This document shows positions 29,847-47,223 of a DNA stretch of 50,207 nt, in pieces. The translations under genes and the position numbers were made by a program. Numbering within the stretch: the first letter of the stretch is position 1; every line of letters begins with the position of its first letter. Source of the stretch: a virus; the IMG/VR virus record IMGVR_UViG_3300026484_000298, positions 1 to 50,207 of that record, one strand, 5' to 3'. The notes under the pieces were generated by a model, which made no database searches, was not told where the DNA came from, and saw only the letters and a list, made by a program, of their open reading frames with translations.

Positions 29847-32735
29847 ATGAGTAAAACAATAACAGATAATCATGATTATGAGGGAATTCAATTACTTGGA
29901 CTTCAGCCAAAAGACAGAGCACCTAATGATTATTTAAGAATGACTGCCAAAGTATTCAATGCTTTTAAACCAATGTCTCCTGATAAAACAGTTTCCTCTT
30001 ATATAAATGGTTTTGAAACTACTATAATCAGAACTGATTTGGATGGAGAAAATATTCTTGAATTTGGAATTCTTAAAGGTTCTTGTTTTATAGATGATCA
30101 ATATATAGGCTTTACAGATGATATAGTTTTTAATTTTCCAATATCTAGTATAGTTACAAATGTTGATTATTACTTAGTACTTAAATATCAATACAGTACT
30201 CAGTGTATGTATAACCCAGCTATTTTTGATTGTATTGGAGTTAGTCAGTACGATGAAAGCAATATGTTAAAAATTGCTAAATTTAAAATGGATGGTTTTA
30301 GTTTAGTAACTTATCCGCAAAATCTTGATGATTTATTTATTCAGAATTATACAAGATTGTTTAGATTGATTTCAGATAAAGCAGTTGATTTATTTACTAT
30401 AAATAGTTTTCAAGGTGATAATATTTCGGCATCTAAATTATACAAGAATTTTAGCAATCCAGAATACAGTACCAGATCAGGCGATATAGTATTTTTAGAT
30501 ATAGATGGTTTATATAAACCAGCAAAAGCATGTAATAGAAAAATAGATAAAGCGATTGGTATGTATGTATACAATCCGAAATCAGGAGCTCATACTATAA
30601 TTACTTCTGGTATTATCAAATTCAATGAAAATATCTTACTTGATGATAGTAATAGTATCTTACAGAATATGGAACCAGGTAAAAGTTATTATCTTTTAGA
30701 TAGTTGTACTGAAAGTAATTATGCTTGGGAAAACACTCAACCATATAGACAAGGTAAGATAAGTTCTAGATTTATTCCAGGTAATGTTAGAACTGGTTTT
30801 GCTATGGATAATTCAACCTTTATGTTAGATATTGATTTTTCAGGAGAATTACAAACTGCTAATTTTTTAGAATTAACTGGATTACCTCAACAATTTCAAG
30901 ATCGATTTAATGTTATTTATTCTTATTGGATGAGTACAAAAGAAAAAGATTTTAGAAATAACTTTAAAGAAGAATTAGAAATCTTATTGCAAAATGCTTC
31001 TGAATTAGAAGATGAGTACAATGATTTAAAAAGAACGGCTGAAATTAATAAAGTAACTAAAGAAGATGTTTATACAAATACTACTTTAAGTTCAGAACCA
31101 AATATAACAATCGGTAAAGTAACTGGTCCTATAACTCCAACTAGATTAAAAGAAATAATAAAAGATAAAACTCAAGATATAAATCAAAATAAAGCAGAAG
31201 AAGCTTTAAAATTTGCCAAGATACATTTCTTTGTAAATTATATGGACGATTTTAATAATTATTTAAGTTCACATATAAATTCAATAAATGCTTTTAAAAC
31301 TAATTTAAGCTCTTTTAAATCTAGAGTACATGATGGAGTAATAAAATTTACAGATAGATTTAAATTTCCTAATTTTAGTACTACTTTTGATAGTATGTCT
31401 TTATTCACTCACGATGCTCTTCCTTTAATTAGTAAGGTTGGTAATGGTTCATCCTCATCATTTACTTATTACGATTGTCCTTCTTCTAATAAGGCTCCTA
31501 ATGCGAGCAATGCTTCGATGATTTCAAAATCCGGCAATGCTAATCAAAAAACTATTTCTGGCTACAGGTCACAGATTTCATCAGTAAATGCTAGAAGAAT
31601 TGCTTCTTATACTACTACTCAAAGTATTTCAGAAAATACCGTTTCAGGTGATACCCCAGGGGCAACCATAAAGAGTAATATAGATGTATTAATTTCAACA
31701 TTAACTAGTATTGTTACACAATTAACTAATGTTAAAAATATTACTAATAATATGAAAAGTGCTGTTTCGAGTTTTAATCTAAGTAGTATAAATAATTTTA
31801 TTAGTCTTAGTGGAACGGCATCTATGAATAATTTTAGTAAGTTATTATTTGATTTATTATTTGTCGAAAATACCAATAATTGTAGTAATCTTATTAGTAA
31901 TATTCTTGGTGGTGCTCAATATTTAAATAATACTTTATTTATGAGTGACAATAATTTAGCTAATTTATATACTTATATGAAAACTGATATATATTCTGGT
32001 TATTATATAATTAAAAATTTAGCTCAGGAATTAGAAGATATTTATAATTATATAAATACTATGAGTGGAACGGTAGGTAATGAAGAGGAAGCATTGCAAT
32101 ATCTATTGGATGCTTATCAAGTATATACGAATACTAGAAGTAGTTATATCGATAGAAAATATATTGCTTTTAAATTATATCAAGAAGCTTTAAAAGATTT
32201 TAAATACTTAGAAGCGGATATAGTAGATATTGTTTCAGATATGGCAGAATTTAATATAGAAATAGATAATCAAAATGAAACAATACGTCTATTAAATAGA
32301 GATTTGATTGACCTTGATAGTAATATTATAGATAGAATGCAGCAACAACAAACAGTAAATTCAATTTTATACATTTCTGATTACGAAAGAAGAATATACA
32401 ACTATACTTATTTAACTATTCGTATACGTTTAAAACAGAGAATGATGGAAGCCGTTCAAGTTGATTATGATATTATTACCGATGTTCTTTATCAATTAAA
32501 ATTACAAACTATTCCAAATAGAACTTTGATTGATAGAGCAGAAAAAAACCAAAACGCTTTTGACAAGGTACTTATAAATATAACTACTGAATTAGAAGGA
32601 ATGATTATAGAATACAATACATTAAGAAGAGAATTTGGTATAGATGATCCTATTTTAATATCAGATATTAATTTCAATGATCATCAATTAGCCGATCCAA
32701 ACCTAGAATGTTTTAAAATGTTTAAAACATTCTAA
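29847..32735 (+). CDS. large virion protein, baseplate or tail-fibre type, 962 aa
   Basis: The N-terminal ~340 residues look beta-rich, with a segment FGILKGSCFIDDQYIGFTDDIVFNFP typical of the start of phage baseplate/fibre proteins, which describe a value, an 'initial description' and a Gly-containing turn. The rest is mainly coiled coil with Asn/Ser-rich links (about 390-460, 760-930). No enzyme motif is visible. The gene is between the acidic core protein and a fibre, so a wedge or long-fibre proximal part is likely. Stretches such as SSSFTYYDCPSSNKAPNASN are low complexity. Confidence 0.6.
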   Translation: MSKTITDNHDYEGIQLLGLQPKDRAPNDYLRMTAKVFNAFKPMSPDKTVSSYINGFETTIIRTDLDGENILEFGILKGSCFIDDQYIGFTDDIVFNFPISSIVTNVDYYLVLKYQYSTQCMYNPAIFDCIGVSQYDESNMLKIAKFKMDGFSLVTYPQNLDDLFIQNYTRLFRLISDKAVDLFTINSFQGDNISASKLYKNFSNPEYSTRSGDIVFLDIDGLYKPAKACNRKIDKAIGMYVYNPKSGAHTIITSGIIKFNENILLDDSNSILQNMEPGKSYYLLDSCTESNYAWENTQPYRQGKISSRFIPGNVRTGFAMDNSTFMLDIDFSGELQTANFLELTGLPQQFQDRFNVIYSYWMSTKEKDFRNNFKEELEILLQNASELEDEYNDLKRTAEINKVTKEDVYTNTTLSSEPNITIGKVTGPITPTRLKEIIKDKTQDINQNKAEEALKFAKIHFFVNYMDDFNNYLSSHINSINAFKTNLSSFKSRVHDGVIKFTDRFKFPNFSTTFDSMSLFTHDALPLISKVGNGSSSSFTYYDCPSSNKAPNASNASMISKSGNANQKTISGYRSQISSVNARRIASYTTTQSISENTVSGDTPGATIKSNIDVLISTLTSIVTQLTNVKNITNNMKSAVSSFNLSSINNFISLSGTASMNNFSKLLFDLLFVENTNNCSNLISNILGGAQYLNNTLFMSDNNLANLYTYMKTDIYSGYYIIKNLAQELEDIYNYINTMSGTVGNEEEALQYLLDAYQVYTNTRSSYIDRKYIAFKLYQEALKDFKYLEADIVDIVSDMAEFNIEIDNQNETIRLLNRDLIDLDSNIIDRMQQQQTVNSILYISDYERRIYNYTYLTIRIRLKQRMMEAVQVDYDIITDVLYQLKLQTIPNRTLIDRAEKNQNAFDKVLINITTELEGMIIEYNTLRREFGIDDPILISDINFNDHQLADPNLECFKMFKTF

Positions 32736-32757
32736 AGAATTTTTAAAAGGAAATAAA

Positions 32758-33027
32758 ATGATAAAAAAAATGGCAGTACTTGATAAAGAAGTTCCGAAGA
32801 ACTTTGGAGAAGTAAAGGGTTTAATAAATAGCGTTATAATATCTAATCCAAATGATACAGAAGCTTTAGTTAAGATATATTCGGATGATATAATTATCTG
32901 GATAGGAATCCTTGATAAAACAAGCACTCAGCGAATATCTTTAGATGTTATATTTGATGATCAAATTAAGGGATTAAGCAATTCTGATAATACTAATATT
33001 ATTTTAAATATAATTCAAACTATTTAA
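32758..33027 (+). CDS. unknown small structural protein, 89 aa
   Basis: Mainly beta-strand character with alternating Ile/Val (SVIISNPNDTEALVKIYSDDIIIWIGIL), no Cys and no signal peptide. AAAAGGAAATAAA precedes the ATG. It sits 22 bases after the large virion protein and 10 before the fibre, with the same direction and codon use, so it is probably part of the virion or a fibre chaperone. The family is unknown. Confidence 0.65.
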   Translation: MIKKMAVLDKEVPKNFGEVKGLINSVIISNPNDTEALVKIYSDDIIIWIGILDKTSTQRISLDVIFDDQIKGLSNSDNTNIILNIIQTI

Positions 33028-33037
33028 AGGTTTTTAA

Positions 33038-35077
33038 ATGCAATTTACAGAAATAAATACATATGATGTAATAGAAGAAAATATTGTTAATGGTCAATTA
33101 TTATGTGATGCAGATACTGATTCAGATAATAAGGTTACTTACTCAATATCTTCTGATAATCCGGAATATTTTAGTGTTCAGGATAATAGAATTCATCTTA
33201 CTGGTGATGGTATGGAAGCTATCAATAAAGATAACCCAGATGATATAAGTAAAGAAATTACTTTTTTAACTTTTGAATTAATTTGTACAAATGATGTTAC
33301 TAATAATTCTATATCTCAATATGTTACCATAAAGGTAGCTAGAGTTATTGATAATGCACCACATGTTCTAGAACACTTCGAACATATGCTTTATACTCAT
33401 AATCTATATCCGAATGCTCATATTTCTAAAATAGTTACTGTTTACAATAGTTTTTGTACTATACAAGGAATTAATTCTAGTTATTTTGATATAGATAATT
33501 TTCCAAGTACTGGTCTAGATAATATAACTATTAAGTTAAATTCAAACGGAGTTTCTTATTTTGAAAATTTAAGATTTGAAGATTTGGATTCAGGTGATGT
33601 TGTAGTAATAGATGGGAGAAATGTATATAAACATAAAATGGAATTATTTTTAGTAGATGCTACTAATAATAAAAGTACTGTTTTTTATATAGACATTCCG
33701 GTTGTAGATGGAGATAAATATAATAATCAAGCTACTAAAAATAATGCAGAAATACAAGCTGAATTATTAGCTAATAAAATAGTAGATATAATCGAACCAG
33801 ATAAAGATAATATAAATAAGTTTACATTTGAAATAAAGAAACTTAAGCGAAAAGTAAAAACGGTTGGTACTAATTTAAATTTAAATACTAATCAAATCCA
33901 AAAGTTATATAATTTGATAATGGAAGGAATTAAAGAAAGAAAGGAATTGTTTAAATTTTCGGATGATAAAATTAAAGTAATTCTTGAAAGTTCTTTTTCA
34001 TTATTAGATAGTATATACGAATCAATAGCCGATTATTTTAAAAAAGAAATTAATAAAGATATTGAAAATAATGCTTTTATTTTAGCTCAGGCTGAAATTG
34101 GTAAAAACTTTGAAAAGTCTTCTCATGTATCTTCGAAATTATATGGTCAATTTTTATCAAAACGATATGATATGGATATAATAGATAAATTTAATACTTT
34201 TCATAAAGCAGTTGATGGAACTTTTCAAAGTTTAATTGGAGCAATTGAATCAAATATTTTACTTCCTTCTATACGAAGAGACAATGAATTAGTTTCTGGT
34301 ATTAATTATAGTACTGGTGTATCAGTGGATGCATATAATGTTGCTTTAAAAGCAGATAAAAAAGTAGAGAGTATTATGCCGAATTTTGGTTATTTAAATA
34401 CAAGATTAAATAATTTAGAAAGTATGACTATTGAGGATTGGGGTACCTCTAGTGGTTGGAAATTCGTTGGAGTTAATTTATATCACAATGGTAATGTTGT
34501 TATTGGAAATAATAATAGAACCACCGTTTTATACGGTGGTTCTATTATGGCTGAAATTAAAGTTGGGACGGGAAGTGTTACTTGGACTGGTTCGAAGTTA
34601 CAATTACATCCTTCTAGTGGAGATAGTACTGTACAAGCTAATATTTTTACAGGTACTGCAAATAAAGCTAAGTACGCCGATGTTGCGGAGTACTATAAAA
34701 AAGAAATTAAAGATAATTATCTGTATGAATCAGGAACTTTAATTTATTTAAACACCGACGAAACAAAAGAGTTTGAAGTAACTGAGAATTCTATAAATAA
34801 TATTTATTGTGGTGTAGTAACAACTTCTCCTGGTTATGTATTAAATGCTGGTATGGAAGATAATGAAGATTATGTAAATATAGCACTTGTTGGTAGAGTA
34901 CCAGTTAATTTTATAGGAAAAATAACTAAAGGTATGTATTTATATCCTGACAATATTGAACCAAATAAAGTTTTTGGATCAAATATAAAATTAGATAGAG
35001 ATTTAGTTGGAATATCTTTAGAGAACAAAACTCAGATTAGTAATGGTACTTTAAAAATCTTAGCAAAAGTTAAATAG
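33038..35077 (+). CDS. tail fibre protein with C-terminal DVAEYY domain, 679 aa
   Basis: Residues 1-110 look like a cadherin/Ig-type domain (LLCDADTDSDNKVTYSISSDNPEYFSV...HLTGDG). A helical coiled region follows (about 260-400), then a beta region with repeated AxxxxGNVVIGN. The C-terminal ~140 residues begin KYADVAEYYKKE and continue GTLIYLNTD...CGVVTTSPGYVLNAGMED...VALVGRVPVNFIGKITKGMYL. This is the pattern [YA]ADLAE.Y..d..YepGtvv...GVVST.PA..MN known from tail-fibre C-terminal domains. Adsorption to a surface receptor is the likely role. The radical SAM gene starts 34 bases after. Confidence 0.8.
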   Translation: MQFTEINTYDVIEENIVNGQLLCDADTDSDNKVTYSISSDNPEYFSVQDNRIHLTGDGMEAINKDNPDDISKEITFLTFELICTNDVTNNSISQYVTIKVARVIDNAPHVLEHFEHMLYTHNLYPNAHISKIVTVYNSFCTIQGINSSYFDIDNFPSTGLDNITIKLNSNGVSYFENLRFEDLDSGDVVVIDGRNVYKHKMELFLVDATNNKSTVFYIDIPVVDGDKYNNQATKNNAEIQAELLANKIVDIIEPDKDNINKFTFEIKKLKRKVKTVGTNLNLNTNQIQKLYNLIMEGIKERKELFKFSDDKIKVILESSFSLLDSIYESIADYFKKEINKDIENNAFILAQAEIGKNFEKSSHVSSKLYGQFLSKRYDMDIIDKFNTFHKAVDGTFQSLIGAIESNILLPSIRRDNELVSGINYSTGVSVDAYNVALKADKKVESIMPNFGYLNTRLNNLESMTIEDWGTSSGWKFVGVNLYHNGNVVIGNNNRTTVLYGGSIMAEIKVGTGSVTWTGSKLQLHPSSGDSTVQANIFTGTANKAKYADVAEYYKKEIKDNYLYESGTLIYLNTDETKEFEVTENSINNIYCGVVTTSPGYVLNAGMEDNEDYVNIALVGRVPVNFIGKITKGMYLYPDNIEPNKVFGSNIKLDRDLVGISLENKTQISNGTLKILAKVK

Positions 35078-35110: not shown

Positions 35111-36874
35111 ATGGAAGATAAATTAATACGATCGTTAAATATCACAATTGAAAAAATATTCAATAAATGTATTTTATCAGAAGAATTGTATAATCGATAT
35201 TGTAAAACTGGGGTATTATTTATATTAAATAATACCCTTGTATCTAAAGAAATTAAAGATTTTAAAATTAATAATAAAAAGGATTTTATTATTAATTTAA
35301 ATGAAGTTCTTGAATTATTTTCGCTATTATCAAAAACAGTTAAAGAAATAGATACAAAAGTTAATACAAATATACATGAATTAATAAATAGTGAGATTAA
35401 GAAGTTAAGTATTTATTTAATAAGTATCAAATATTCTTGTACAGAAGTAGAAGCAATAAATAGATTAGAATATAAAAAACATTACGAAGAATTAATTAAG
35501 AATGATAAGGAACTTGCCGATTTTGAAAAAGAAATGGAAACATATTTCTCAAATGAAATTAAATCTAAGAATTTAAATCAATTTAAATTAAAGAAAGTTA
35601 AAGAAAGTTATTTACATGATATCGAAAATATTAATTATAATAGTTCTTTTCATGTAACTTTTCAAATAAATAAAAATTGTAATTTTAAATGTACTTATTG
35701 TTATGAAGGTTTGGATAAACTTACCGAAATTATTACAGATAATGATATACCAAAAATAGTATCAGGTTTGAAAAAATTACAAGAAAACCTAAAAAAAGAT
35801 AAATTGCCACATAAATTGTCGTTTAGTATATTAGGTGGTGAACCAACATTAGTTCCAACAAAAAGAACACAAATGCTAACTAAGCTAATGATGGAAAAAT
35901 TAGAAATACATGATGTAATTTTAATTACTAATAATTATTCTGCTCAAAAAACTATAGACTTTTTTCATCCTGATTTTCCAAAAGAATTAATCCGTTATCA
36001 GGTATCGTATGATGGTGGGAAAATCCAAGATGATTATAGAAAGGACGCTAATAAAAAAGGATCTAAGAATTTATTAACAGATGAAATTTATAAATTATTA
36101 AATTTAATGGATAAATCTTCTAAATTATCAATGAAGGCCACTTTACCGATGGAAGCTTTTTCTTCAGTGAAAGATGCAATAAATGATTATTTACAATTCG
36201 AAGATGTAGTAAATGACCAAAATGGTCATGGATCCAATTTTTCGTATTACAGTACATTTGATACTTCATCTTTATTGATGATAAATCTTAGAAAAAATTT
36301 TGCTAATAACCAAGAAAGTATTAATAGTTTTCTATTAGAAGTTGAAAACCTTTTAAAATATTTGGTTAAATTTGAAATGGATAGATTAATATTAGGTAAA
36401 TCTTTATTTACTAGATTTTTTAAAGAACTTAGATATAATGCGAATGATACTTCATGTAGCGCAGGTCAGAGTTTATTTGGATTAGATCAATTAGGGAATG
36501 CTAGATTCTGTCATAGAACAGAATATGATAACTATAGTAATTATCCTAAAGAACAAGGTTCTAAATTATTTTATGGAAATATAAATAATACTAATTTTTA
36601 TAAAATATTTAATGAATCTAAAGAATTAATTACTAATAAAAAACAAGAAGTTTTAACCGATCCGAATAATTTATGTAGAAGCTGTAAAACATTGACTTGT
36701 GTTAAATGCCCAATGGCCTTTACACCTCCTGATAGAATACTGGATACTAGTGTGTCCGGAGATTTATTTACTGATATGTATTCACATGGGTTAACGTTAA
36801 CGTGTATTGTAAATAATACTATAAGCAAATATTTATATATATTTGATAAAATAATTAATAAAAAGGTTTTATAA
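35111..36874 (+). CDS. radical SAM/SPASM-type enzyme, 587 aa
   Basis: CNFKCTYC (C190, C194, C197) is the 4Fe-4S binding motif and GGEP (242-245) is the SAM-binding strand. C-terminal Cys-rich segments, CSAGQSLFGLDQLGNARFCHR then CRSCKTLTCVKCPM, have the layout of a SPASM auxiliary-cluster domain, typical of enzymes that modify ribosomally made peptides. The first ~185 residues are a helical extension without a recognised fold. Its stop overlaps the ATG of the 15-Cys gene (TAATG), so the two are coupled. It starts the accessory operon. The enzyme probably acts on that protein, but other substrates are possible. Confidence 0.88.
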   Translation: MEDKLIRSLNITIEKIFNKCILSEELYNRYCKTGVLFILNNTLVSKEIKDFKINNKKDFIINLNEVLELFSLLSKTVKEIDTKVNTNIHELINSEIKKLSIYLISIKYSCTEVEAINRLEYKKHYEELIKNDKELADFEKEMETYFSNEIKSKNLNQFKLKKVKESYLHDIENINYNSSFHVTFQINKNCNFKCTYCYEGLDKLTEIITDNDIPKIVSGLKKLQENLKKDKLPHKLSFSILGGEPTLVPTKRTQMLTKLMMEKLEIHDVILITNNYSAQKTIDFFHPDFPKELIRYQVSYDGGKIQDDYRKDANKKGSKNLLTDEIYKLLNLMDKSSKLSMKATLPMEAFSSVKDAINDYLQFEDVVNDQNGHGSNFSYYSTFDTSSLLMINLRKNFANNQESINSFLLEVENLLKYLVKFEMDRLILGKSLFTRFFKELRYNANDTSCSAGQSLFGLDQLGNARFCHRTEYDNYSNYPKEQGSKLFYGNINNTNFYKIFNESKELITNKKQEVLTDPNNLCRSCKTLTCVKCPMAFTPPDRILDTSVSGDLFTDMYSHGLTLTCIVNNTISKYLYIFDKIINKKVL

Positions 36875-37485
36875 TGGGATGTGGTGTAAAAATTAACCAC
36901 CATCATATGGGTGGTTGTGATTGTAATATAGATACTCCTGGTCCATTAATATGTACAATGGACTCCCAGAATATTGAATGTAAATTTAATTCGGTTGAGT
37001 TTCCATCTGGTTCTCCAGTTAATGGTCCAATGTCAGGGAATGATGATAAAGCAACAACGTGCCCTGATTATAAAGAGATGTGTCCTGGTAATATGTTTGG
37101 TACTTTAGATTCTTATTTTGCTGATGCTACCGCTGGTGAAATTATAGACGATACTGATGTATCTTCTTTCTATCGTGGGGCTACTGCAGTAGCTCGCGAC
37201 AGAAAATTAACATTACCAAGTACCTCAAGTAACGTTTCTAATGGTAATTTAGTAAATAACGGAGATTATAATATGCTTAGTAATTGGGCAAATACCGTAA
37301 TAAGTACTTTAGGTCGTACCGAAAGCGAGACGACTGGAACGGAAATAGATGCAAGCGGTTGGATATCAATAAGAGATAAATTAAAGTATGTTGCTGAAAT
37401 GTGTAATGATAATTTACATTGTACTTGTGAAAATGTATGTTCTTGTAATCAGGTATGTACTTGTAATTGTGATAGTCATTATTAA
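36874..37485 (+). CDS. Cys-rich protein with CxC-repeat tail, candidate radical SAM substrate
   Basis: 203 residues with 15 Cys. The N-terminus MGCGVKINHHHMGGCDCN is His/Cys-rich, and the last 27 residues hold eight Cys as CTCENVCSCNQVCTCNC followed by DSHY. The middle (about 70-165) is Ser/Thr/Asn/Gly-rich without Cys. I do not recognise the family, though CxC tails remind me of some phage virion proteins. Being coupled to a SPASM-type radical SAM gene makes it a candidate for thioether or other cross-linking, or a metal-binding fibre part. It comes right after the fibre module. Confidence 0.8.
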   Translation: MGCGVKINHHHMGGCDCNIDTPGPLICTMDSQNIECKFNSVEFPSGSPVNGPMSGNDDKATTCPDYKEMCPGNMFGTLDSYFADATAGEIIDDTDVSSFYRGATAVARDRKLTLPSTSSNVSNGNLVNNGDYNMLSNWANTVISTLGRTESETTGTEIDASGWISIRDKLKYVAEMCNDNLHCTCENVCSCNQVCTCNCDSHY

Positions 37486-37497
37486 AAAGGAAAAATT

Positions 37498-38118
37498 ATG
37501 ATAATAGCGTTAATTAATAAAATAAAAGGTAAATTGGTAATAACTGATGTAATGAATGCTTCTCCAAAAGATTTATTACTTATAGATTATTATGTGCGTT
37601 TAGATAACAATACTAGAATATTTTATAATGAATTAAAAAGTAAAGGTTATATAGTTTCAATAAACGAAAAAGCTTTTTTAAAGAAAGAAATTATCAAAGA
37701 TGATTTAATTTTTACTTCTTTAGAATTTAAAAAACCAGACGAAGCAGAATTAACAGAATTGGATATTAAAAAGGAAAAATATTTTAGTAGTATGGATACT
37801 TATTTAAGCAATCATGTAAATAAAATACAATGGTTCAAATACATTGAATTTATTTCAATTTTTAATCAATTTGCTTCTAAGGGTCTTTTTATTACTGATA
37901 ACAATAAAGAAGATATGTATATTAAAATATTGGAGGATGGTGATGAAGGAACATTAGAAGCATTAGAATTCTATTTAACTTTACAAGATGAAATAAATCC
38001 TTTTATCCAATTGCATTTTAAAATATTACGTATTAAAGAAGAAGTTGAATATTCAGACGAAGAAGAATTCGAAGAAATTCTTGAAAAATACCCTCAATAT
38101 TCAAAAGTTAGTTTATAA
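37498..38118 (+). CDS. unknown protein, 206 aa
   Basis: Not recognised. Soluble, Lys/Glu-rich and helical, with an acidic C-terminus (EEVEYSDEEEFEEILEKYPQYSK). The first 60 residues have beta/alpha spacing (IIALINKIKGKLVITDVMNA). AAAAAGGAAAAATT precedes the ATG. Its stop overlaps the next start by one base. Placed between the Cys-rich protein and the glycosyltransferase-like genes, it may be an accessory of either. Confidence 0.65.
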   Translation: MIIALINKIKGKLVITDVMNASPKDLLLIDYYVRLDNNTRIFYNELKSKGYIVSINEKAFLKKEIIKDDLIFTSLEFKKPDEAELTELDIKKEKYFSSMDTYLSNHVNKIQWFKYIEFISIFNQFASKGLFITDNNKEDMYIKILEDGDEGTLEALEFYLTLQDEINPFIQLHFKILRIKEEVEYSDEEEFEEILEKYPQYSKVSL

Positions 38119-38966
38119 TGCTTTTAATAAATAATAGTTTTGGTGCTCGTAAAAGAGGTACCAAAACTATTCCACTTAAAATTAATAATGAATTTAAATT
38201 AGGTATTTGTACAATAAAAGAAAATTTTATTAATTTTTATAGAATACCTAATTTAAAGTTATTTAATAATAATCTTATATTTACTTATTCTCAGAGTATT
38301 GAAGAATTATCTAAAAATACGTTAGATATAAATAAAAGAAAATTTTATTATTTAAAATATAAAGATAAAATTTATTCAAATGGTTTTTATTATTCTAAGT
38401 ATTATGGAATGAAATTTTATAGTACTTACTTTTTTAGAGATATCTCTAAAACAGATATCTCTAAAACAGATATCTCTAAAACAGATATCTCTAAAACAGA
38501 TATCTCTAAAACATATGGAATGTATATTAGAGAAGAATGTAATGATTTAGAAGTACTCGATAAATTTTTAAAGGAAAATAATATTAATAAAAATGAAGTA
38601 TTGATATTAGGTAACGAAATAAATAGTTTCGCGAATACTACTAATTCAAAATATTTTTTTAATAATATTAGGTATTATTTGGTAAATAATGTTAGTAACG
38701 ATAGTGTATCAAATACATTTTTAGAGGCTTTATATAATAAGAAAAGAATAGTATTAATAAATAATTTAGCGATTGCTAATGATAATAAAGCTTTTATAGA
38801 AGCTTATTCTTATTATGGTTATTCTAATTTTTTTAATAAATTAGATAATTTAAATAAATATTGTTGGAATAATTTAACTAAAGAAAATTTTAGAAATAGA
38901 GCGAAACATATCAATAAGATTTTTAGATCATCTAAAACTTTTATTGATTTTTTAAAGGAATTCTAA
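38118..38966 (+). CDS. possible glycosyltransferase-like protein with DISKT repeats, 282 aa
   Basis: The second half has NEVLILGNEIN...NTFLEALYNKKRIVLINN, a weak match to the E-x-x-x-G-x-x-V end of GT-B glycosyltransferases. Assignment is therefore tentative. Residues ~108-132 are five DISKT repeats, which split the protein into two halves. It is coupled at both ends by one-base overlaps (start 38118, end 38966). The repeats look like an insertion in frame. Confidence 0.4.
   Translation: MLLINNSFGARKRGTKTIPLKINNEFKLGICTIKENFINFYRIPNLKLFNNNLIFTYSQSIEELSKNTLDINKRKFYYLKYKDKIYSNGFYYSKYYGMKFYSTYFFRDISKTDISKTDISKTDISKTDISKTYGMYIREECNDLEVLDKFLKENNINKNEVLILGNEINSFANTTNSKYFFNNIRYYLVNNVSNDSVSNTFLEALYNKKRIVLINNLAIANDNKAFIEAYSYYGYSNFFNKLDNLNKYCWNNLTKENFRNRAKHINKIFRSSKTFIDFLKEF
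38439..38513 (+). repeat. five tandem copies of GATATCTCTAAAACA
   Basis: Identical to the unit at 23233-23292, encoding DISKT. TTTTAGAGATATCTCTAAAA, a perfect 20-base palindrome at 38433-38452, overlaps the first copy. Confidence 0.95.
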
Positions 38967-39625
38967 TGGAATTACTAATATATCTGACTAAGTTCTGTAA
39001 CTATAAATGTAAGTATTGTTTTAAAAGAGATCAGGGTAATTCTAAAATATTATCTAAAAAATTATTAAATTTAAAATTAAACCAAGTAAATAATATAATT
39101 ATTAAAAATAATATAAAGGAATTGGATATTACCATTAGAGGTGGGGAATATTCTTTAATTAATGAAACAATACCATTGTTTCACGATATTATAAATTGGT
39201 GTAATAATCTAAAACTAAAAATTAATATTACGACTCATTCAAATTATTCTGGGAAGTTAGAATACTTTGAAAAACTATTTAAGGTATTGGACTCTAGTAA
39301 AACACAAATTACTTTTAATTTTAGTAATCATTCTGAATACAATAATATTCTAAAAAAAGCATTCCAAGAAAAAATTATTAAAATTAAAAAATTAAGTAAT
39401 TTAATTAATTTTCGATTAGCATTTGATAATTATTCTGAAACTATCTTTAGTTTAACTAAAGATAGTTTCCATAAAGAATTATTAAGTATGCCAATTATTA
39501 GAACTATTCCAAATAAAGTTTTCTTTACTTCTAAAGAATTTAAAGTACTTTTAGATGATTCGTTAAATTTAACAATTAATAATAAAATTTTTAAATTAAG
39601 GAAAGAAAATGATAAAAATAGATAA
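38966..39625 (+). CDS. radical SAM protein, 219 aa
   Basis: CNYKCKYC (C11, C15, C18) starts the protein, and LDITIRGGEYS near 60 gives the GGE motif. At 219 residues it is short: the barrel after strand 4 is compressed and no C-terminal Cys cluster is visible, so it lacks a SPASM domain. A 15-bp hairpin at 39437-39469 lies in its coding sequence. It overlaps the previous gene by one base and the next by 17, so the genes are translated together. Confidence 0.8.
   Translation: MELLIYLTKFCNYKCKYCFKRDQGNSKILSKKLLNLKLNQVNNIIIKNNIKELDITIRGGEYSLINETIPLFHDIINWCNNLKLKINITTHSNYSGKLEYFEKLFKVLDSSKTQITFNFSNHSEYNNILKKAFQEKIIKIKKLSNLINFRLAFDNYSETIFSLTKDSFHKELLSMPIIRTIPNKVFFTSKEFKVLLDDSLNLTINNKIFKLRKENDKNR
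39437..39469. repeat. 15-bp palindrome inside a coding sequence
   Basis: GAAACTATCTTTAGT pairs with ACTAAAGATAGTTTC over a 3-base loop. The CTAAAGATAGTT core recurs at 43378-43407 and 49333-49353. Confidence 0.85.
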
Positions 39626-40364
39626 TGGTATTATCGTGAAACTTGATAAAATAACTGGTATATTATTTTATGCTTTGGAATATTATATTTATTTAAAAGA
39701 AAATGATTTAAATTTTAAATTATTTTTCGAACTCCCTGAAAGTATTCATAATACATTCCGAGAAATTATTAAATATAAATATAAAGAAAAATATATACGT
39801 TTATTTGATTTTACATTAGTTAAAAAATTACCCAAATTATATTGTAAAAATTTATTAGTACTTGATTACAGTACTTTTAGATATTTAAGTAAAGATATAA
39901 TATATAAAAAATGTTTTTATAATTACACAAATGAAGAAAAATCCTTTCTTTTTGAATTTAAGGAATTCTCTTCTCTGAAAAATATAATTACCTTTGGTGA
40001 TGTAAATATGGGAGTTAAAACAATAAACGACTATCCTTTATTTTTAAATTTTAAAATGTTTAAAAAAATAAAAATTAAAAAGTATTTATATTATGAAAAC
40101 AAGTTAAAAATTGGAAAAAGATTAGATATAATAATTGATTTTCATTCTAGTTTTGATAAGCTACATTTACATAGATTTGGTTTTGATAGAGCAAATAGAT
40201 TAATACCGGAATGTAATTATTATAATAAAACAATTATTGTTACTGGCTCAGGTAATAGATTAGATAGTATTGATTTAAGATTAAATCAAGATATTAAAGA
40301 ATTAGATATAAATAATTCAACATTCGCTAATTTTATAAAGGATGCTTTAAATGAAACATATTAA
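39609..40364 (+). CDS. possible GT-B glycosyltransferase-like protein, 251 aa
   Basis: The segment DRANRLIPECNYYNKTIIVTGSG near 200 has the R-L-[IV]-P-E-C-x-[YF]-Y-N-K form shared with the gene at 41085-41933, and looks like the EA/EC donor-site end of GT-B enzymes. An N-terminal GILFYALEYYIYLKEN also matches that paralogue (GHTFEVMDYYLFLKD). No complete GT motif set is visible, so the sugar and acceptor are unknown. It overlaps the radical SAM genes on either side. Confidence 0.45.
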   Translation: MIKIDNGIIVKLDKITGILFYALEYYIYLKENDLNFKLFFELPESIHNTFREIIKYKYKEKYIRLFDFTLVKKLPKLYCKNLLVLDYSTFRYLSKDIIYKKCFYNYTNEEKSFLFEFKEFSSLKNIITFGDVNMGVKTINDYPLFLNFKMFKKIKIKKYLYYENKLKIGKRLDIIIDFHSSFDKLHLHRFGFDRANRLIPECNYYNKTIIVTGSGNRLDSIDLRLNQDIKELDINNSTFANFIKDALNETY

Positions 40365-41085
40365 TTTAAATTTTACCTTAACAAACAATTGTAATTTTAA
40401 GTGTTCTTATTGTATTCAAGGGTCTCTTCAAACTAGAACTAAAATTTTAGATATTAAAGTTTTTAGAAATATTATAGTTAAAATTTTTAAAGAGGTTAAA
40501 AAATATAATTTTGAAACTATGGATATTACTTTAATGGGTGGTGAATTAAGTACAAATAATAAATTTTTAGAATACTTTAAATTATTATTTAAGTATTTAA
40601 ATGAATTAAATATTAAAGTTAGTTTAAATTTTTTAAGTAATTTAAGTGGTAATTTATCATTCTTTAAAGAATTGTTAAAATACCAGAATGATAATATTTC
40701 ATTGACCTTAATTGGATCAATACATTCTGAATTTAAATCTATTAAAAAATTAGAAAGTATTTATAAATTGTATAGGAATCTTCTTGAATTGTCTTTTTTA
40801 GAAGATAAGGTATATGCTAAGTTTAAAGATTTTATTATTGATAATAATATAGTTACAAATTTTATAGATATTCGAGAACCCTTAGCAAATGAGAAAAAGA
40901 TAAAAAATATAAAAATATGTAATGCCCAGTATTTTAATATTTTTCCAGATGGCGAAATAAAAGATGTTTGTAGAAATTTTAAATTTAATTATAGAAATTT
41001 TAAAATAATAAATAAAGAAATAAAATGTAATAAGGAATGCCCTTGTCCATTTTTAGCAAATGAATTTAAATCTAAAGAATTATAA
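40351..41085 (+). CDS. radical SAM protein, 244 aa
   Basis: CNFKCSYC (C14, C18, C21) and MDITLMGGELS near 68 give the SAM-binding core. C-terminal Cys residues (NIKICNAQYF, VCRNFKF, ECPCPF) suggest a small auxiliary cluster site. Start overlaps the glycosyltransferase-like gene by 14 bases, and its stop overlaps the next start (TAATG). The substrate is unknown. It shares layout with the 38966 gene and is likely a paralogue. Confidence 0.83.
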   Translation: MKHINLNFTLTNNCNFKCSYCIQGSLQTRTKILDIKVFRNIIVKIFKEVKKYNFETMDITLMGGELSTNNKFLEYFKLLFKYLNELNIKVSLNFLSNLSGNLSFFKELLKYQNDNISLTLIGSIHSEFKSIKKLESIYKLYRNLLELSFLEDKVYAKFKDFIIDNNIVTNFIDIREPLANEKKIKNIKICNAQYFNIFPDGEIKDVCRNFKFNYRNFKIINKEIKCNKECPCPFLANEFKSKEL

Positions 41086-41933
41086 TGAATAAAGAAATAT
41101 TATTAACATTCTGTCCAAGCACCATCGAAACCAATAGAATTTGTGGTCATACCTTTGAGGTAATGGATTACTATTTATTTTTAAAAGATTCTGGATTTAC
41201 AAACGTTAAAATACTTATTCAGGAAAAAATATCAAGAGAAGAATTATTTAAAGCGTATTCAGACAAGTACATATTACCAGATAACTATAAAAAAGATATT
41301 ATTTTTAAAAGAAATTTAAAATATTTAATAAGTAAAGGTACTATTATATTTACCGGTGGAATTGATCATAATTACAATGTTAAGTTAATAAGTCAAAAAT
41401 TATTATTATTTAGATGCAATAAAGAAATAGATTATTCTAATTTTAAACACAAAAATGTTTATTTATTACAAGATAATAGATTTTATGATAAACCAAAAAA
41501 TATAAAAATTATTAATTATATTAAAAAAATATATTTTACTAGATATAAAAAAATTAATAAATCTGATAATAAAACTTTAGTTTATATAAATTCTAATATT
41601 AGAAAAACTTCTTTGGTTTTCAATGATGATTATTTGGTAGTTTCTGGAACGGATATAAAAGATAAAACTTATTTGAAAGCTCCAGTGGCGAATTTATTTA
41701 GCAAATTTAATAAATATTTATACACTGAAACTACTAGAAAATTTGATTGTAGTTCTAGATTGGTACCGGAATGTTATTTTTATAATAAAGAAATATTATT
41801 TAATTTTAATAAAGAAGAATATTTTAAAATTGATAAAGGTTTAAAATATAGATACGAAGATACTGTAAATAATTTTAGTAATTTAGATTTAAAAAATGGA
41901 GATACAATTTGCAATATAATAACGAAGAAATAA
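41085..41933 (+). CDS. possible GT-B glycosyltransferase-like protein, 282 aa
   Basis: Near 225 it has RKFDCSSRLVPECYFYNKEI, and the N-terminus has GHTFEVMDYYLFLKDSGF; both correspond to the 39609 protein. GTIIFTGGIDHNYN suggests a nucleotide-binding turn. These are consistent with, but do not prove, a glycosyltransferase of GT-B type. It overlaps the radical SAM gene upstream by one base and the next radical SAM gene by 25. Confidence 0.45.
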   Translation: MNKEILLTFCPSTIETNRICGHTFEVMDYYLFLKDSGFTNVKILIQEKISREELFKAYSDKYILPDNYKKDIIFKRNLKYLISKGTIIFTGGIDHNYNVKLISQKLLLFRCNKEIDYSNFKHKNVYLLQDNRFYDKPKNIKIINYIKKIYFTRYKKINKSDNKTLVYINSNIRKTSLVFNDDYLVVSGTDIKDKTYLKAPVANLFSKFNKYLYTETTRKFDCSSRLVPECYFYNKEILFNFNKEEYFKIDKGLKYRYEDTVNNFSNLDLKNGDTICNIITKK

Positions 41934-42808
41934 TTAAAGTGTGTGGAGATAAACAATTACCTTTATTTCGAATACATATAAATAATGAGTGTAATTTAAA
42001 TTGTGAATATTGTTCAGCTAAAGAAATTATGAAAAATAAAGGAAAACCTTTAAATTTATTAAAAGTATTAAAAACAATTAAAGAAATTAATAAACGAATG
42101 AAATTTAATATAGTATTAACAGGTGGTGAACCAACTAAAAATTTAAATACTTTAAATTACTTAACTAAAGAATTATTAAAATACGATAATTTAAATAATA
42201 TCGAAGTTATTACTAATGGTTTTAAATTACTAACTTATTTAGGATTATTTAAAAATAACTCTGACTTTATTGAAAAAGTTAATATTAGTTATTCATACCA
42301 TCCTTCTCAAATTAATTTAAATAATTATTTAAATATTTTTAAGAAAAGTTTTATATTAATAAATAATTTAAATATAAAAAGTGATATATTACTATATCCT
42401 AAATATTTTGATAATATAAAAAAGTTAATAATAGAAATGAAAAATTATAAATTTAAATATGGTTTTATATTTATAAATAATTATTTCGATAATGAACCGA
42501 TAGAATATTCCGAAGCTGATTATAGATTTATAAATAATTTAGAAGAAGAAGATAATTATTTAAAATGTAATTATTATTCTAAAAATAACAAATATGTTTT
42601 AAGTATGTCTGAGATTCAAAGAAATGAATTGAGAAATTTTGCCGGATTTAAATGTTCAATAAATAAATTTAGTATTATCTCAAATGGTAGTATAATTAGA
42701 GATTGTGTCCATTTACCAACTAGTATTAATAATTTAAATGATTCTATTTTATGTCCTGGTGATTGTGTATGTGATACTGATTTATATTACTTAAAAGAAA
42801 AAATATGA
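41909..42808 (+). CDS. radical SAM protein, 299 aa
   Basis: CNLNCEYC (C28, C32, C35) and VLTGGEPTKN near 70. C-terminal Cys (FKCSINKF, IRDCVHL, ILCPGDCVCD) fits a SPASM-like auxiliary cluster. The start is TTG with GGAGA upstream, inside the end of the preceding gene. The stop region overlaps the next gene (ATGA). Confidence 0.85.
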   Translation: MQYNNEEIIKVCGDKQLPLFRIHINNECNLNCEYCSAKEIMKNKGKPLNLLKVLKTIKEINKRMKFNIVLTGGEPTKNLNTLNYLTKELLKYDNLNNIEVITNGFKLLTYLGLFKNNSDFIEKVNISYSYHPSQINLNNYLNIFKKSFILINNLNIKSDILLYPKYFDNIKKLIIEMKNYKFKYGFIFINNYFDNEPIEYSEADYRFINNLEEEDNYLKCNYYSKNNKYVLSMSEIQRNELRNFAGFKCSINKFSIISNGSIIRDCVHLPTSINNLNDSILCPGDCVCDTDLYYLKEKI

Positions 42809-43737
42809 TTTTACCAAAGAAATTTATACCTAAAATAATAGTGATCGATTTAAATGATCCATGTTATTTAAATTGTTCTTTTTGTCCAAAAACTAAAGAT
42901 ACTGTATTTACTAAAAATAGTTTTTTAAAAATAAAAATCCTTTTGGATTATTTTATTTCTTTTGGTATTGAATCTTTTGAAATAACTCCAACTATTGGAG
43001 ATTCGATAAACAATCCTTATTTAATTCAAATTCTAGATTATTTATTGCATTATAATAAAAAAGTATTTATGTTTACATCATTAGTAGGTAATATAAAAGA
43101 TTTGAAAACTATTATAAATCGTCCTAATTTTTATTTAGTTATAAGTACGTACGGTCTAACTAAAAATAGTTTTAAAAAACATACTAATGTTAACAAGTAT
43201 TCTAATTTTATAATGAATTTATTATTTGTATTAAATAACTTTAAACCAAAAGATAATAATTATATAATTATTAGAAACCGCTTTGATAATAAAAAAGATT
43301 CTATACTTTTTAAATCATTAATAAATAAATACCAGTCCGATAATATTTTTTTCGAATTATATCATCCTGATATTACTTCAACTAAAGATAGTTCAACTAA
43401 AGATAGTTCTGTAAAGTTTTGTTGTAATTTTTTAATAAATTTTGGATGTGATATCAATGGTGATATTAGGTTCTGTAATTATGCTTTTGGTGCTCCAATA
43501 ATCGGTAATATTTTTAAAGATAATTTAAATGATATTCTTAACAATTATTTTCAAAAGTATTTGAATAATTCCTTTTGCAGTAGTTGTATATTATTTGATG
43601 AAGTGGATTTAGAAGGAAAGGAGAATAACTATAAAAACAATTATATACTTAGTTATTCTTTTAAATCTTTTTTAAATAATAAAAAGATAAACATAGGTTT
43701 AGTAAATATTAAAAAGGAAGACTATGCAATTAACTAA
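42805..43737 (+). CDS. radical SAM protein with TPTxGD in place of GGE, 310 aa
   Basis: CYLNCSFC (C20, C24, C27) is the cluster motif. At the position of GGE the sequence reads FEITPTIGDSINNP, with Gly-Asp instead, as in its likely paralogue (IDLTPTKGDILNIP) in the gene at 43724-45394. C-terminal CCNFLINFGCDINGDIRFCNYAFG and CSSC fit a SPASM domain. TSTKDSSTKDSS near 193 is a duplicated 15-base unit. Overlaps on both sides. Confidence 0.85.
   Translation: MILPKKFIPKIIVIDLNDPCYLNCSFCPKTKDTVFTKNSFLKIKILLDYFISFGIESFEITPTIGDSINNPYLIQILDYLLHYNKKVFMFTSLVGNIKDLKTIINRPNFYLVISTYGLTKNSFKKHTNVNKYSNFIMNLLFVLNNFKPKDNNYIIIRNRFDNKKDSILFKSLINKYQSDNIFFELYHPDITSTKDSSTKDSSVKFCCNFLINFGCDINGDIRFCNYAFGAPIIGNIFKDNLNDILNNYFQKYLNNSFCSSCILFDEVDLEGKENNYKNNYILSYSFKSFLNNKKINIGLVNIKKEDYAIN
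43378..43407 (+). repeat. two copies of TCAACTAAAGATAGT inside a radical SAM gene
   Basis: An exact 15-bp duplication encoding STKDS in frame. Its core (AACTAAAGATAGT) recurs at 39453-39466 and 49340-49352. Confidence 0.9.
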
Positions 43738-45394
43738 AGATAATTGTTCTTTATTTTTCGTTATTGAAAATAAAGAACAATTAATAATGGAAACTAAAAA
43801 AAGTATATATCATATAATTGAATCAGATTCTTGGATTAAAGATATTACGATTTATTTAGTTACTCCAACTAGTATTAAATTAAATAATAATATTAAACAA
43901 GATTTTTTATCTATTTATAATAATATATTTTTTATTGAAGAGGAATGTGTAAAATATTCGGATCATGTTTTTTTTAATATGATCTATGGTTGTTCTTTAG
44001 CGGAAAGAAAAATAAATACAGATTACTTAATATACTTGGATTGTGATATGTATTTAATAAATGATTTTCCAACTTATTTTAAAGGTGAGTTAGTTCTAGA
44101 ATCTGAGGGTTATTATAATCAGGAATCCGATAATTGGCTTAAAACTAAAAATAAATGGTTAAAAATATTAAAACAAGATATTACAAATTTTACGTATATT
44201 AATACAGAGTTTATGATAACTAAAAAAGATAATAATATTTTTCAACAATGGGAGAATACTTTTAATAACCTTTATCCTGATTTAAAAAAATTTGAAAGAA
44301 CATATAAAAAAATATATAAAGATATTGGTTTTGATATATCATGTATGGAAGAAACAAGTTTTGAATTATTAATTAATGATTTAGAACTCGATATTTTATT
44401 TTTACCGGATGTTGTTGCTAGATTGGCGGACCCATCTGCAATACCAGATAATACAAATAATATTTTATTTTTAAGCCAACACATTAAAAAAACAAATGAT
44501 ATTATTTTTGATTATTCTGATAATTCTTTTAAAGCGGATACAGTAACTATGGAATTAATTTATTCGTGTGAATTTGACTGTTTCTTTTGCGAGAAACCAA
44601 ATTTAGATAAACCAATAATATTAGAATTAAATAAGTTTAAATATTATTTGGATAAATTAACTTCGCAAGGTATCACTTGTATAGATTTAACTCCTACTAA
44701 AGGAGATATATTAAATATTCCAAATATAACGGAATACTTAAAAATAGTGGAAGAAGATGAAAAGGTTACCAAATATTATTTTTATACTTCATTAGCTATA
44801 AAAGATAAATTAGATCATAATTTAATTAATTTTATAAATAAGTCTAAGAAATTACATGTATATTTTTCTTGTTATTTTGATAATGATTTCAATTCTTTTA
44901 ATAAAATAGTGCGCAAAGATAAAGAAGTTTATATAAAAAATAAAAAAGATTCTCTTAATTTTATAAAGGATATATGTAAATATAAAATTACTTTTATAGA
45001 TAGAGTTAATAAATATTCATTAAAATATTTATATAAAAATAATCAAGTAGCTAAATTAGCCAAACTAAAAGGTATTGAAGTTATTACAGAAGAAGATGAT
45101 TTAAAAGAAAAACGCGATAAATTTTTAAGGGATACTGGCTTTTGTGAGCAATTTTTATGTTGTAGTACTTTAAAAATGAATGGTGAATTTGTTTATTGTA
45201 ATTATGGTAAATCGTATTATGATGGAGTGGTTGAAAATATAGAAAATTTTACAAATAAAAATTTATTAACATATGAATTGATAAATTCAGATTTATGTAG
45301 AAAGTGTATGTATAAAATGGAATCTGGTATAAAAGAACGTATATGGAATCCAGAACTTTATATAAAAAATTATAAAAAAGAAACTAGCATGTAA
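43724..45394 (+). CDS. glycosyltransferase–radical SAM fusion protein, 556 aa
   Basis: The N-terminal ~265 residues have a GT-A fold signature with a DxD metal site in YLIYLDCDMYL (D106, D108) and acidic/aromatic residues typical of galactosyl- or glycosyltransferases. Residues 275-556 are a radical SAM domain: SCEFDCFFC (C282, C286, C289), then IDLTPTKGDILNIP, and C-terminal CEQFLCCSTL...VYCNYG and CRKC as a SPASM-like cluster. A single chain with a sugar transferase and a radical SAM enzyme suggests that the two act in turn on one substrate. The join has no stop or frameshift. Confidence 0.8.
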   Translation: MQLTKDNCSLFFVIENKEQLIMETKKSIYHIIESDSWIKDITIYLVTPTSIKLNNNIKQDFLSIYNNIFFIEEECVKYSDHVFFNMIYGCSLAERKINTDYLIYLDCDMYLINDFPTYFKGELVLESEGYYNQESDNWLKTKNKWLKILKQDITNFTYINTEFMITKKDNNIFQQWENTFNNLYPDLKKFERTYKKIYKDIGFDISCMEETSFELLINDLELDILFLPDVVARLADPSAIPDNTNNILFLSQHIKKTNDIIFDYSDNSFKADTVTMELIYSCEFDCFFCEKPNLDKPIILELNKFKYYLDKLTSQGITCIDLTPTKGDILNIPNITEYLKIVEEDEKVTKYYFYTSLAIKDKLDHNLINFINKSKKLHVYFSCYFDNDFNSFNKIVRKDKEVYIKNKKDSLNFIKDICKYKITFIDRVNKYSLKYLYKNNQVAKLAKLKGIEVITEEDDLKEKRDKFLRDTGFCEQFLCCSTLKMNGEFVYCNYGKSYYDGVVENIENFTNKNLLTYELINSDLCRKCMYKMESGIKERIWNPELYIKNYKKETSM

Positions 45395-45403
45395 GGATAA
45401 CTT

Positions 45404-46387
45404 TTGGAAAAGATATTTATAGATAAAGATTTTAAAAAAAGAGAATCTACTTTACTCATGGAATTTCAATTCCATGATATATGTAATATTAAATGTTCAT
45501 ATTGTAAATTAAATTCCGGAAAGAATGTTCTAAAAGAAATATACTTAGATAATTTATATACTTTTATAGTAGAAAAGGAATTATATAAAAAATTTAATAA
45601 TATAGAAATAATGATCATGGGTGGAGAAACTTTAATTGATATTAAAATATTAGATTATTTATTATTAACTTTTAAAAAAATAAATAAATTAATTAAAATA
45701 TCTCATGTACTTGTACTTAGTAATTTTGTATTATGTACCGAACTTATAGAACAACAATTAAATAAAATAAAAGATTGTGGGTTTAATACAGAATTAGAAA
45801 TTACACTACATGCACAGGAATATTCTTTTGATCAATTAAAATTATTTATGAAAAATTATAATTATTTTAAAGACGATGTTATAAGTATTAATGTTCTGGA
45901 AGGTGTTTTAACCAATAAAAGATATAAAATATTGTATAAACATTTATTATCCAATTTAATAAAAGATGGTAAAAAAGTACATAATGTTTATATTTGTGAT
46001 GTTAATAAAATAAAATATGATGGTTTATGTTTTATTTCGAATAAAAATATACTTAGTACTTTTGGTATAGAAATATCTAGTTTAGGTAATACTTTTATAA
46101 ATAACAATAAAGAATATTCTTTAGGTTATATAAATGAACATTTTATAAGTTCTAAAAAATGTTTATGTAATGTTAGAAATAATTTAGTACTCGATGCCTC
46201 TGGTCATGTTAGGTGGTGTGGTAATTTTGATCAGTTTCAAGAAGATGTTATACCAGATATTAAAATGATACCAGAGCATTTTGATCAAATATTTAATTAT
46301 TTTTTTACCGATAATTACATAGAATGTCCGTATAATTTATGCATGGGTGGTATATTTAAAGAATTAAAAATAAAGGACATTGAATGA
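45404..46387 (+). CDS. radical SAM protein, 327 aa
   Basis: CNIKCSYC near residue 28 and IEIMIMGGETLI near 69. C-terminal LCNVRNNLVLDASGHVRWCG and ECPYNLCMGG resemble a SPASM domain (VxPDGxVxxC pattern). The start is TTG with AAGGATAACT ahead. It begins nine bases after the fusion gene. Its stop overlaps the next start (ATGA). Confidence 0.85.
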   Translation: MEKIFIDKDFKKRESTLLMEFQFHDICNIKCSYCKLNSGKNVLKEIYLDNLYTFIVEKELYKKFNNIEIMIMGGETLIDIKILDYLLLTFKKINKLIKISHVLVLSNFVLCTELIEQQLNKIKDCGFNTELEITLHAQEYSFDQLKLFMKNYNYFKDDVISINVLEGVLTNKRYKILYKHLLSNLIKDGKKVHNVYICDVNKIKYDGLCFISNKNILSTFGIEISSLGNTFINNNKEYSLGYINEHFISSKKCLCNVRNNLVLDASGHVRWCGNFDQFQEDVIPDIKMIPEHFDQIFNYFFTDNYIECPYNLCMGGIFKELKIKDIE

Positions 46388-47223
46388 AAATACATTATAT
46401 AATTAATAAATTATTTCAACGTTTATTTAAAACTAAAGTGGAATTAGCGTATAATTTTATCGATTATTTTATTATTAAAAAAATGGTAGCAAATAAAAAA
46501 TTAAATGATGGAATACTTTTCGATATTCCTTTAATCAGATCAAAAAAATACCAATATATACTTCCGGATAGTATTAATAACAATAAAGTATTTTATAATA
46601 AAAGCATACCAAATAATAAACTAAAAAAACAAATGATTGTTAATAATTATATATCTTTTTTAAAGATTATAGATAATCCTTTATTAAAAAAATTTAAAAA
46701 ACCTTTTAATATTACTAATTTTTATTTAAAAAATAATAAATTATATTATCAGGATGATTTTTTAAATATAGAAAAATTTGCGGAAGATAGTATATTAAAA
46801 TATCTGCTTAAAAATGTAAAATATTATTTCGAAATGCGTGCTAAAAATTCGGGAGATACTTTAGTATTTGTAATTTTAAATAAATCAGGTGAATTTTTAA
46901 AATCAAATATAAATGAATTGATTAAGGAAGCAAATAAAAATTATATAAATACTTATAAAAATATTATTATAATTAAGGAAGAGACTTTTATTAATTATGA
47001 CAAAAAAGATATTTTTAAATTATTATATATTAATTCTGAAATTAAAAATTTAGAATATTTAATTAAGTTAAATTTCAATATAAATAGATGTAAATTAAAT
47101 GAAGTGTATTATAACAATAAATCGGAGAAATACAAGGAATTTATAAATGATTTAAAGTTAATAGTTACACCAAAAATTTGCAAAAGATATTATATAGATG
47201 ATTTGGTAAAGGTAACTAAATGA
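46384..47223 (+). CDS. unknown protein, 279 aa
   Basis: Not recognised. Highly Lys/Asn/Ile-rich and very AT-rich in code, with FEMRAKNSGDTLVFVILNKSGEFL near 145 as the best-structured part. No Cys cluster, membrane helix or GT motif. Overlaps with both neighbours (ATGA each side). Sits between radical SAM genes, so a role in the same pathway is likely. Confidence 0.6.
   Translation: MKIHYIINKLFQRLFKTKVELAYNFIDYFIIKKMVANKKLNDGILFDIPLIRSKKYQYILPDSINNNKVFYNKSIPNNKLKKQMIVNNYISFLKIIDNPLLKKFKKPFNITNFYLKNNKLYYQDDFLNIEKFAEDSILKYLLKNVKYYFEMRAKNSGDTLVFVILNKSGEFLKSNINELIKEANKNYINTYKNIIIIKEETFINYDKKDIFKLLYINSEIKNLEYLIKLNFNINRCKLNEVYYNNKSEKYKEFINDLKLIVTPKICKRYYIDDLVKVTK

Follow-up and report, generated by a model that had tools for sequence, protein, structure and literature searches.

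A radical SAM (rSAM) enzyme with a variant SPASM domain is encoded directly next to a cysteine-rich protein of tail-fibre type in a 50-kb virus record (IMG/VR IMGVR_UViG_3300026484_000298; this whole stretch of 50,207 nucleotides is referred to here as the window). The pairing of this enzyme subclass with arrays of Cys units is conserved, and the fibre domain that carries the array in the window is homologous to that of array proteins from other phages. We consider it probable that the enzyme is a dedicated maturase that modifies the Cys tail of a virion protein, most likely by forming thioethers.

The gene pair and the variant SPASM enzyme

The window contains a T4-type terminase (positions 3636–5573), an RNA polymerase beta-subunit fragment and structural genes. 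Both members of the pair are present as originally predicted: the rSAM gene (35111–36874, plus strand) encodes a 587-aa protein with a match to phrog_1802 (9e-18), and the gene at 36874–37485 (plus strand) encodes the proposed substrate, a protein of 203 aa with 15 Cys. The two meet in the sequence TAATG (36872–36876, plus strand), where the rSAM stop TAA and the ATG of the Cys protein have one A in common. The translational coupling suggested on this basis is a feature of the window; in relatives the two genes overlap by 11 nt or are 11–18 nt apart, but their order and adjacency are kept despite this variation. The pair directly follows fibre genes, as had been noted, with three fibre-like structural ORFs (962, 89 and 679 aa; 29847–35077, plus strand) immediately upstream, and a 206-aa protein (37498–38118, plus strand; phrog_25260, 1e-13) is encoded directly 3′ of the Cys protein.

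No relative of either window protein was found by tblastn in 50,697 phage records (INPHARED), and an IMG/VR scan with the rSAM core identified three viruses (L002–L004) with the same gene order: proteins of ∼950–970, 89–90 and 670–680 aa, the rSAM enzyme, the Cys protein, and proteins of ∼205 and ∼280 aa, after which come further rSAM genes and glycosyltransferase-like genes. Their rSAM enzymes are 46–49% identical to that of the window and their Cys proteins 33–37%, with C36, C63, C70 and most of the tail retained. The shared order in these viruses, together with a tail that is better conserved than any other part of the protein, indicates that the pair is not a chance association.

The Cys residues of the 203-aa protein are located at positions 3, 15, 17, 27, 36, 63, 70, 177, 183, 185, 189, 191, 195, 197 and 199. 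Eight of them fall within the last 27 residues, in agreement with the original prediction, and form the C-terminal array (residues 177–203, CNDNLHCTCENVCSCNQVCTCNCDSHY; 37402–37482, plus strand). Seven of these eight are invariant in the four close relatives, and across 23 array proteins six of them show little or no variation. The N-terminal His/Cys block that had also been pointed out is present in the window and is absent from the Cys proteins of the relatives. Preceding the array is a fibre-type helical domain (residues 66–176; 37069–37401, plus strand), defined by AlphaFold2 and hhalign, with predicted helices at residues 93–109, 129–142 and 160–176 (pLDDT ∼73–90 per block). The tail itself is disordered in the predicted model, as would be expected if modification were needed, and equally for any poorly sampled sequence. 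A fold search with the model and a comparison of the family profile with the PDB gave no match, Pfam found no Peptidase_S74 chaperone in the window protein, and no leader peptide was recognised in it. The window array is built from 6-mers (CxCNxV) and arrays at other loci from 7-mers (CTCNCNY); the fibre domains of the two families are homologous (hhalign of the N-terminal parts only, E 2.7e-6, probability 89%).

The rSAM core motif of the enzyme, CNFKCTYC (residues 190–197; 35678–35701, plus strand), is invariant in 22 relatives; Pfam matches Radical_SAM (3e-5) and Fer4_12 above cutoff, and the predicted fold resembles rSAM enzymes. The auxiliary cluster region (residues 449–565; 36455–36805, plus strand) has the arrangement C449-X12-G-X4-C467 ... 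C522-X2-C525-X4-C530-X2-C533 ... C565. The SPASM assignment of the original prediction holds for the seven Cys and their order (C-GX4C...CCCC...C), but not for the canonical CX2CX5CX3C spacing, from which two gaps are one residue shorter. We refer to enzymes of this kind as type A. When 22 type A enzymes are aligned, all ten cluster Cys, including the seven auxiliary ones, prove invariant, and CX2CX4CX2C occurs in the window and in every type A member with a regex match; the canonical spacing is found only in type B, the other SPASM class near arrays. Most environmental loci with sufficient sequence have a type A enzyme, as do the window, L002–L004, Campylobacter phages and a Clostridium prophage. 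Type B is a second enzyme in most environmental loci and is not present in the window.

Among the NCBIfam families common to all type A members, the PapB thioether maturase scores best (22/22, best 3.8e-54), and the next Cys-related families are the CXXX-repeat, SCIFF and QhpD maturases. Because the window enzyme lies far below every NCBIfam equivalog cutoff (38.4 bits versus 340 for PapB, NF047865), the type of bond is assigned by analogy only. By profile, the best solved relative is 5wgg (E 6e-30), which is CteB. Fold searches match anSMEcpe (best), ChlB, TigE and SuiB, all of them peptide- or protein-modifying enzymes. Matches to viperin and MoaA were weak and far below cutoffs, and reflect the common rSAM core. 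The N-terminal 168 residues contain only helices in the model, and most type A enzymes lack such an extension; its derivation from a fused copy of the small protein encoded upstream of other arrays found no support (hhalign E 0.44). Pfam gave no match to a PqqD-like RRE in the window enzyme and no RRE-like domain was recognised. RREs are not universal in RiPP systems.

Cys arrays and their co-occurrence with type A enzymes

A DNA pattern scan for two CTCNCNY-type units, blind to rSAM genes, returned 42 viral stretches, nearly all of which encode a fibre-type N-terminus and an array whose Cys units number from 3 to 17 or more. The corresponding scan with the window-type DNA pattern gave 14 chance or low-complexity stretches, which were kept as a control and contain no rSAM gene in 107 kb; the Cys ORFs of L019 and L027 were set aside as low-complexity and spurious. 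Among 289 seven-residue units, position 4 is N, D or Q in 280, position 6 is N or D in 281 and position 7 is Y, F or H in 277. Lys and Arg are absent from the arrays, so that trypsin would leave each as a single long peptide. At L053, 14 units comprise 13 DNA sequences and three protein sequences. The units thus vary more in DNA than in protein, which argues that the protein repeat is under selection.

The larger family also connects the arrays to fibre chaperones. A distant match to the window rSAM, at L014, lies near a CTCNCNY-repeat protein followed by an S74 chaperone, and Pfam places Peptidase_S74 (PF13884) directly after the array in L014, L050, L056, L068 and L085. The last of these bridges the two array types, with an rSAM gene directly upstream, the 6-mers CICNSD-CACNNV-CACHND-CACNY and then S74. 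The 206-aa protein 3′ of the window pair is related to the protein found 3′ of arrays elsewhere (hhalign 1.4e-10), and the phrog_25260 family may be an accessory part of the array/rSAM module. We also observed that many array proteins (L047, L051, L055, L077, L057) end 12–13 residues into S74 (SDERLKxxIxYl*), with the remainder of an S74-like domain in a separate ORF just downstream at L055, L057 and L077; L047 has four tandem array genes. At L129 (5400–7116) and L151, the start of a type A-like rSAM gene overlaps a fibre that has GHxH repeats and ends in (CT)n.

Co-occurrence was assessed in both directions. Starting from the arrays, an rSAM gene is present in the fetched stretch at 35 of 45 loci, and the remaining ten are short on one side. 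A type A profile search of whole records was positive in 25 of 28, a set that included all ten short-sided loci and the three close relatives of the window. The three negatives have arrays at contig ends: L038 starts at contig base 1, and the arrays of L049 and L069 reach an end of the fetched stretch (for L069, the stretch is the entire contig). Starting from dereplicated rSAM loci, with a type A profile that was trained on array neighbours and with some of the loci on contigs of the array scan, a Cys array is found at 24 of 25 type A loci versus 1 of 45 other rSAM loci (Fisher p 1.7e-16); on contigs outside the array scans only, the figure is ∼9 of 10 type A loci. Among the 25, the one locus without an array (L088) is a fragment of 8.6 kb. 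At the other exception (L100, 5965–8301), a different rSAM enzyme of neither SPASM type is encoded directly 5′ of a different, very long Cys array, and we read this locus as a separate version of the same idea; the array protein has 364 aa, mostly Cys repeats of the CSCNSDCADGCG type, and a fibre-type N-terminus.

The rSAM gene and the array are directly adjacent in unrelated phages, in both gene orders. The refuting condition named in the original prediction, homologues without the rSAM partner in most phages, was examined from both sides and did not refute the pairing, and the near-strict co-occurrence gives strong support to the enzyme–substrate relationship of the original prediction. It strongly implies that the array is the substrate.

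Cultured phages show the same association. All 15 array-protein records in INPHARED are Campylobacter phages of the Firehammervirus type, several of them duplicate entries of one phage, and all 15 Firehammervirus records have a type A rSAM gene and the small downstream protein (in IBB_35, whose array protein is AEF56812, this small protein is on another contig). In CP220, the array protein is CPT_0180, with six CTC[D/N]CNY-type units, and the type A rSAM is CPT_0184; the CP220 paper notes both the 21-bp repeat of CPT_0180 and an excess of rSAM genes but draws no connection between them (PMC2853527). In a Clostridium rectalis prophage (L078), which has the smallest system, the genes for a tail protein of 1200 aa, a type A rSAM and an array protein of 142 aa follow one another. 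A looser resemblance is seen in the tail fibres of Achromobacter phages JWF (L082, 2658–6179) and 2-1 (L163), where a Cys cluster (CNCDCNCNCSC or CNCDCNCSC) precedes a Hint self-processing domain and a canonical-SPASM rSAM gene lies two genes downstream; a Providencia phage with the Hint domain and no Cys cluster has no annotated rSAM gene nearby. GenBank gives the array protein of CP21_105 (L016, 4138–5742) as putative N-acetylneuraminate pyruvate lyase, an apparent misannotation that recurs in phage WX1.

Beyond the pair, the window contains a long cluster (38118–50207) with rSAM ORFs at 38966, 40351, 41909, 42805, 45404 and 48263, a glycosyltransferase-like part fused to an rSAM-like part (43724–45394), a truncated DegT aminotransferase (47674), a GT2 (49188) and an apparently transketolase-like match to phrog_18761 (49867). 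Other large phages have similar rSAM/glycosyltransferase clusters after the array. A repeat of the form (SKTDI/DISKT)n, possibly a mobile short repeat, is common to two unrelated ORFs, a large structural-type protein (21379–24810) and a 282-aa protein (38118–38966). Elsewhere in the window are another rSAM gene (7984–8928, minus strand), a 109-aa ORF with a low-complexity (EETSDD)n tail (10490–10819, minus strand), an SPFH/Band_7 protein that strongly matches a PHROG of unknown function (11045–12349, minus strand; phrog_11908, 1.5e-88) and an actin-like partition protein (18281–19303).

Proposed modification and alternatives

In the mechanism that we propose, the Cys-rich protein would be a tail-fibre-type component of the virion in which a C-terminal array of Cys-x-Cys-Asn units follows the helical fibre domain, and the rSAM/SPASM enzyme would be made alongside it in the infected cell. 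The enzyme would abstract hydrogen atoms from residues of the array, and the Cys sulphurs would be joined as thioethers to nearby carbons, those of Asn/Asp or of another neighbour. There are precedents for such thioethers in the ranthipeptides, made by PapB or CteB, and in an enzyme subunit modified by QhpD. The links could form within one chain or between the chains of a trimer. The product would be a covalently locked, rigid fibre tip, stable to reduction and proteolysis and independent of disulphides, and the modification may serve a stabilising role.

Resemblance to these families makes thioethers the most likely chemistry, and an alternative, which we regard as rather unlikely, is that the enzyme modifies the array in some other way: by conversion of Cys to formylglycine, by C–C or C–O links to Tyr or Asn, or by epimerisation, with the array Cys perhaps forming disulphides or binding metal. 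The best fold match, anSMEcpe, oxidises a substrate Cys, the YhhB cyclophane maturase is among the families matched by most members, and in the units Asn is conserved at position 6, while position 7 is aromatic or His. Many loci have a canonical SPASM enzyme as a second rSAM, and a third rSAM as well; more than one step is therefore likely there. The stronger profile matches, however, are PapB, SCIFF, CXXX-repeat and QhpD, which are thioether or Cys-directed maturases, and CxAxR, the recognition motif of anSMEs, is absent from the arrays.

Two further explanations were considered. Cys-rich CxC tails resemble metallothionein-like sequences, and the pair adjoins a long rSAM/glycosyltransferase cluster in the window and in many large phages; the tail might then be a metal-binding or disulphide knot that forms without an enzyme, and the rSAM enzyme might act elsewhere, for example on a glycan together with that cluster. 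We think this improbable, given that the pairing is specific to one SPASM subclass, that it persists where a single rSAM gene lies by the array (the Clostridium prophage, L053 and L061) and that rSAM clusters without type A have no arrays. Less probable still, and in our view very much so, is that the Cys protein, instead of entering the virion, acts as a modified peptide inside the cell or after release, as an effector or a bacteriocin-like product. RiPP precursors usually adjoin their maturase, and the 11 virion bands identified for CP220 do not include CPT_0180. Against such a peptide stand the fibre-type domain, the S74 chaperone in relatives, the lengths of 140–534 aa and the tail-gene setting in unrelated phages. 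The suggestion in the original prediction that the protein could be a virion part gains indirect support from the S74 chaperones of relatives, the common fibre-type helical repeats and the place among tail genes; domain homology and position point to a virion location.

Returning to the maturation of a virion protein, we lean, by a small measure, towards viewing it as a widespread and so far unrecognised phage strategy, in which this rSAM/variant-SPASM subclass, in many cases helped by a second and a third rSAM, would cross-link fibre tips with Cys-Asn arrays of evolvable length, and RiPP-type chemistry would be used in building the virion. The recurrence of the pair in distantly related phages suggests that many phages chemically modify their own fibre tips. 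Phage rSAM genes have so far been counted and left without a substrate: CP220 and CPt10 have 11–12 (PMC2853527), one marine T4-like genome has 12 (PMC5332604) and pelagimyophages carry rSAM cassettes in their host-recognition cluster (PMC7029224). At least one subclass now has a proposed fibre-type substrate, and the concreteness of that substrate makes the question testable in cultured phages. If the proposal is true, peptide-maturase chemistry would extend from small products to viral receptor-binding structures, and the arrays would provide many naturally occurring Cys-repeat substrates together with the enzymes that match them.

Comparison with known systems

A literature search largely without subscription papers turned up none that connects rSAM enzymes of phages to Cys arrays in fibres. 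The closest cultured counterparts, CP220 and CPt10, have a CTCDCNY array, a type A rSAM and a phrog_25260 homologue, but the array and rSAM genes are 2.2 kb apart and the array is internal to a 534-aa protein. Several array proteins resemble S74 (endosialidase-chaperone) fibres in having PF13884 directly after the array, a domain that the window protein lacks. A Cys array with an rSAM enzyme is not known as part of S74 fibres.

PapB (NF047865) and the SCIFF maturase CteB (5wgg, TIGR03974) share with the window enzyme the rSAM and SPASM-type cluster architecture and a Cys-rich neighbour. The window enzyme differs in scoring below the equivalog cutoff, in its shorter SPASM spacing and in having no recognised RRE, and its partner is a fibre-type protein of ∼200 aa rather than a short leader–core peptide; for these reasons (score, precursor and spacing) we do not file the pair as ranthipeptide/PapB. 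PapB substrates have CX3D spacing, and that of the arrays is CX2N. The CXXX-repeat maturases (TIGR04115), with the second-best family score (4.5e-43), likewise act on repeated Cys, but they match 16 of 22 type A members and not the window enzyme at 1e-5, and the phage units are CxCNxV or CxCNCNY.

The pair works like a RiPP maturase pair in that a modifying enzyme is adjacent to, and co-occurs with, its proposed substrate. The substrate, at 203 aa with a folded fibre-type domain (140–534 aa in relatives), departs from the usual form of a short leader and cleaved core. The maturase of quinohemoprotein amine dehydrogenase, QhpD (TIGR03906), matches 21 of 22 type A members; its substrate is different and non-viral, and the window enzyme scores 29.7 against a 453-bit cutoff. 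QhpD forms its thioethers inside a protein subunit and is the nearest precedent for a structural protein as substrate.
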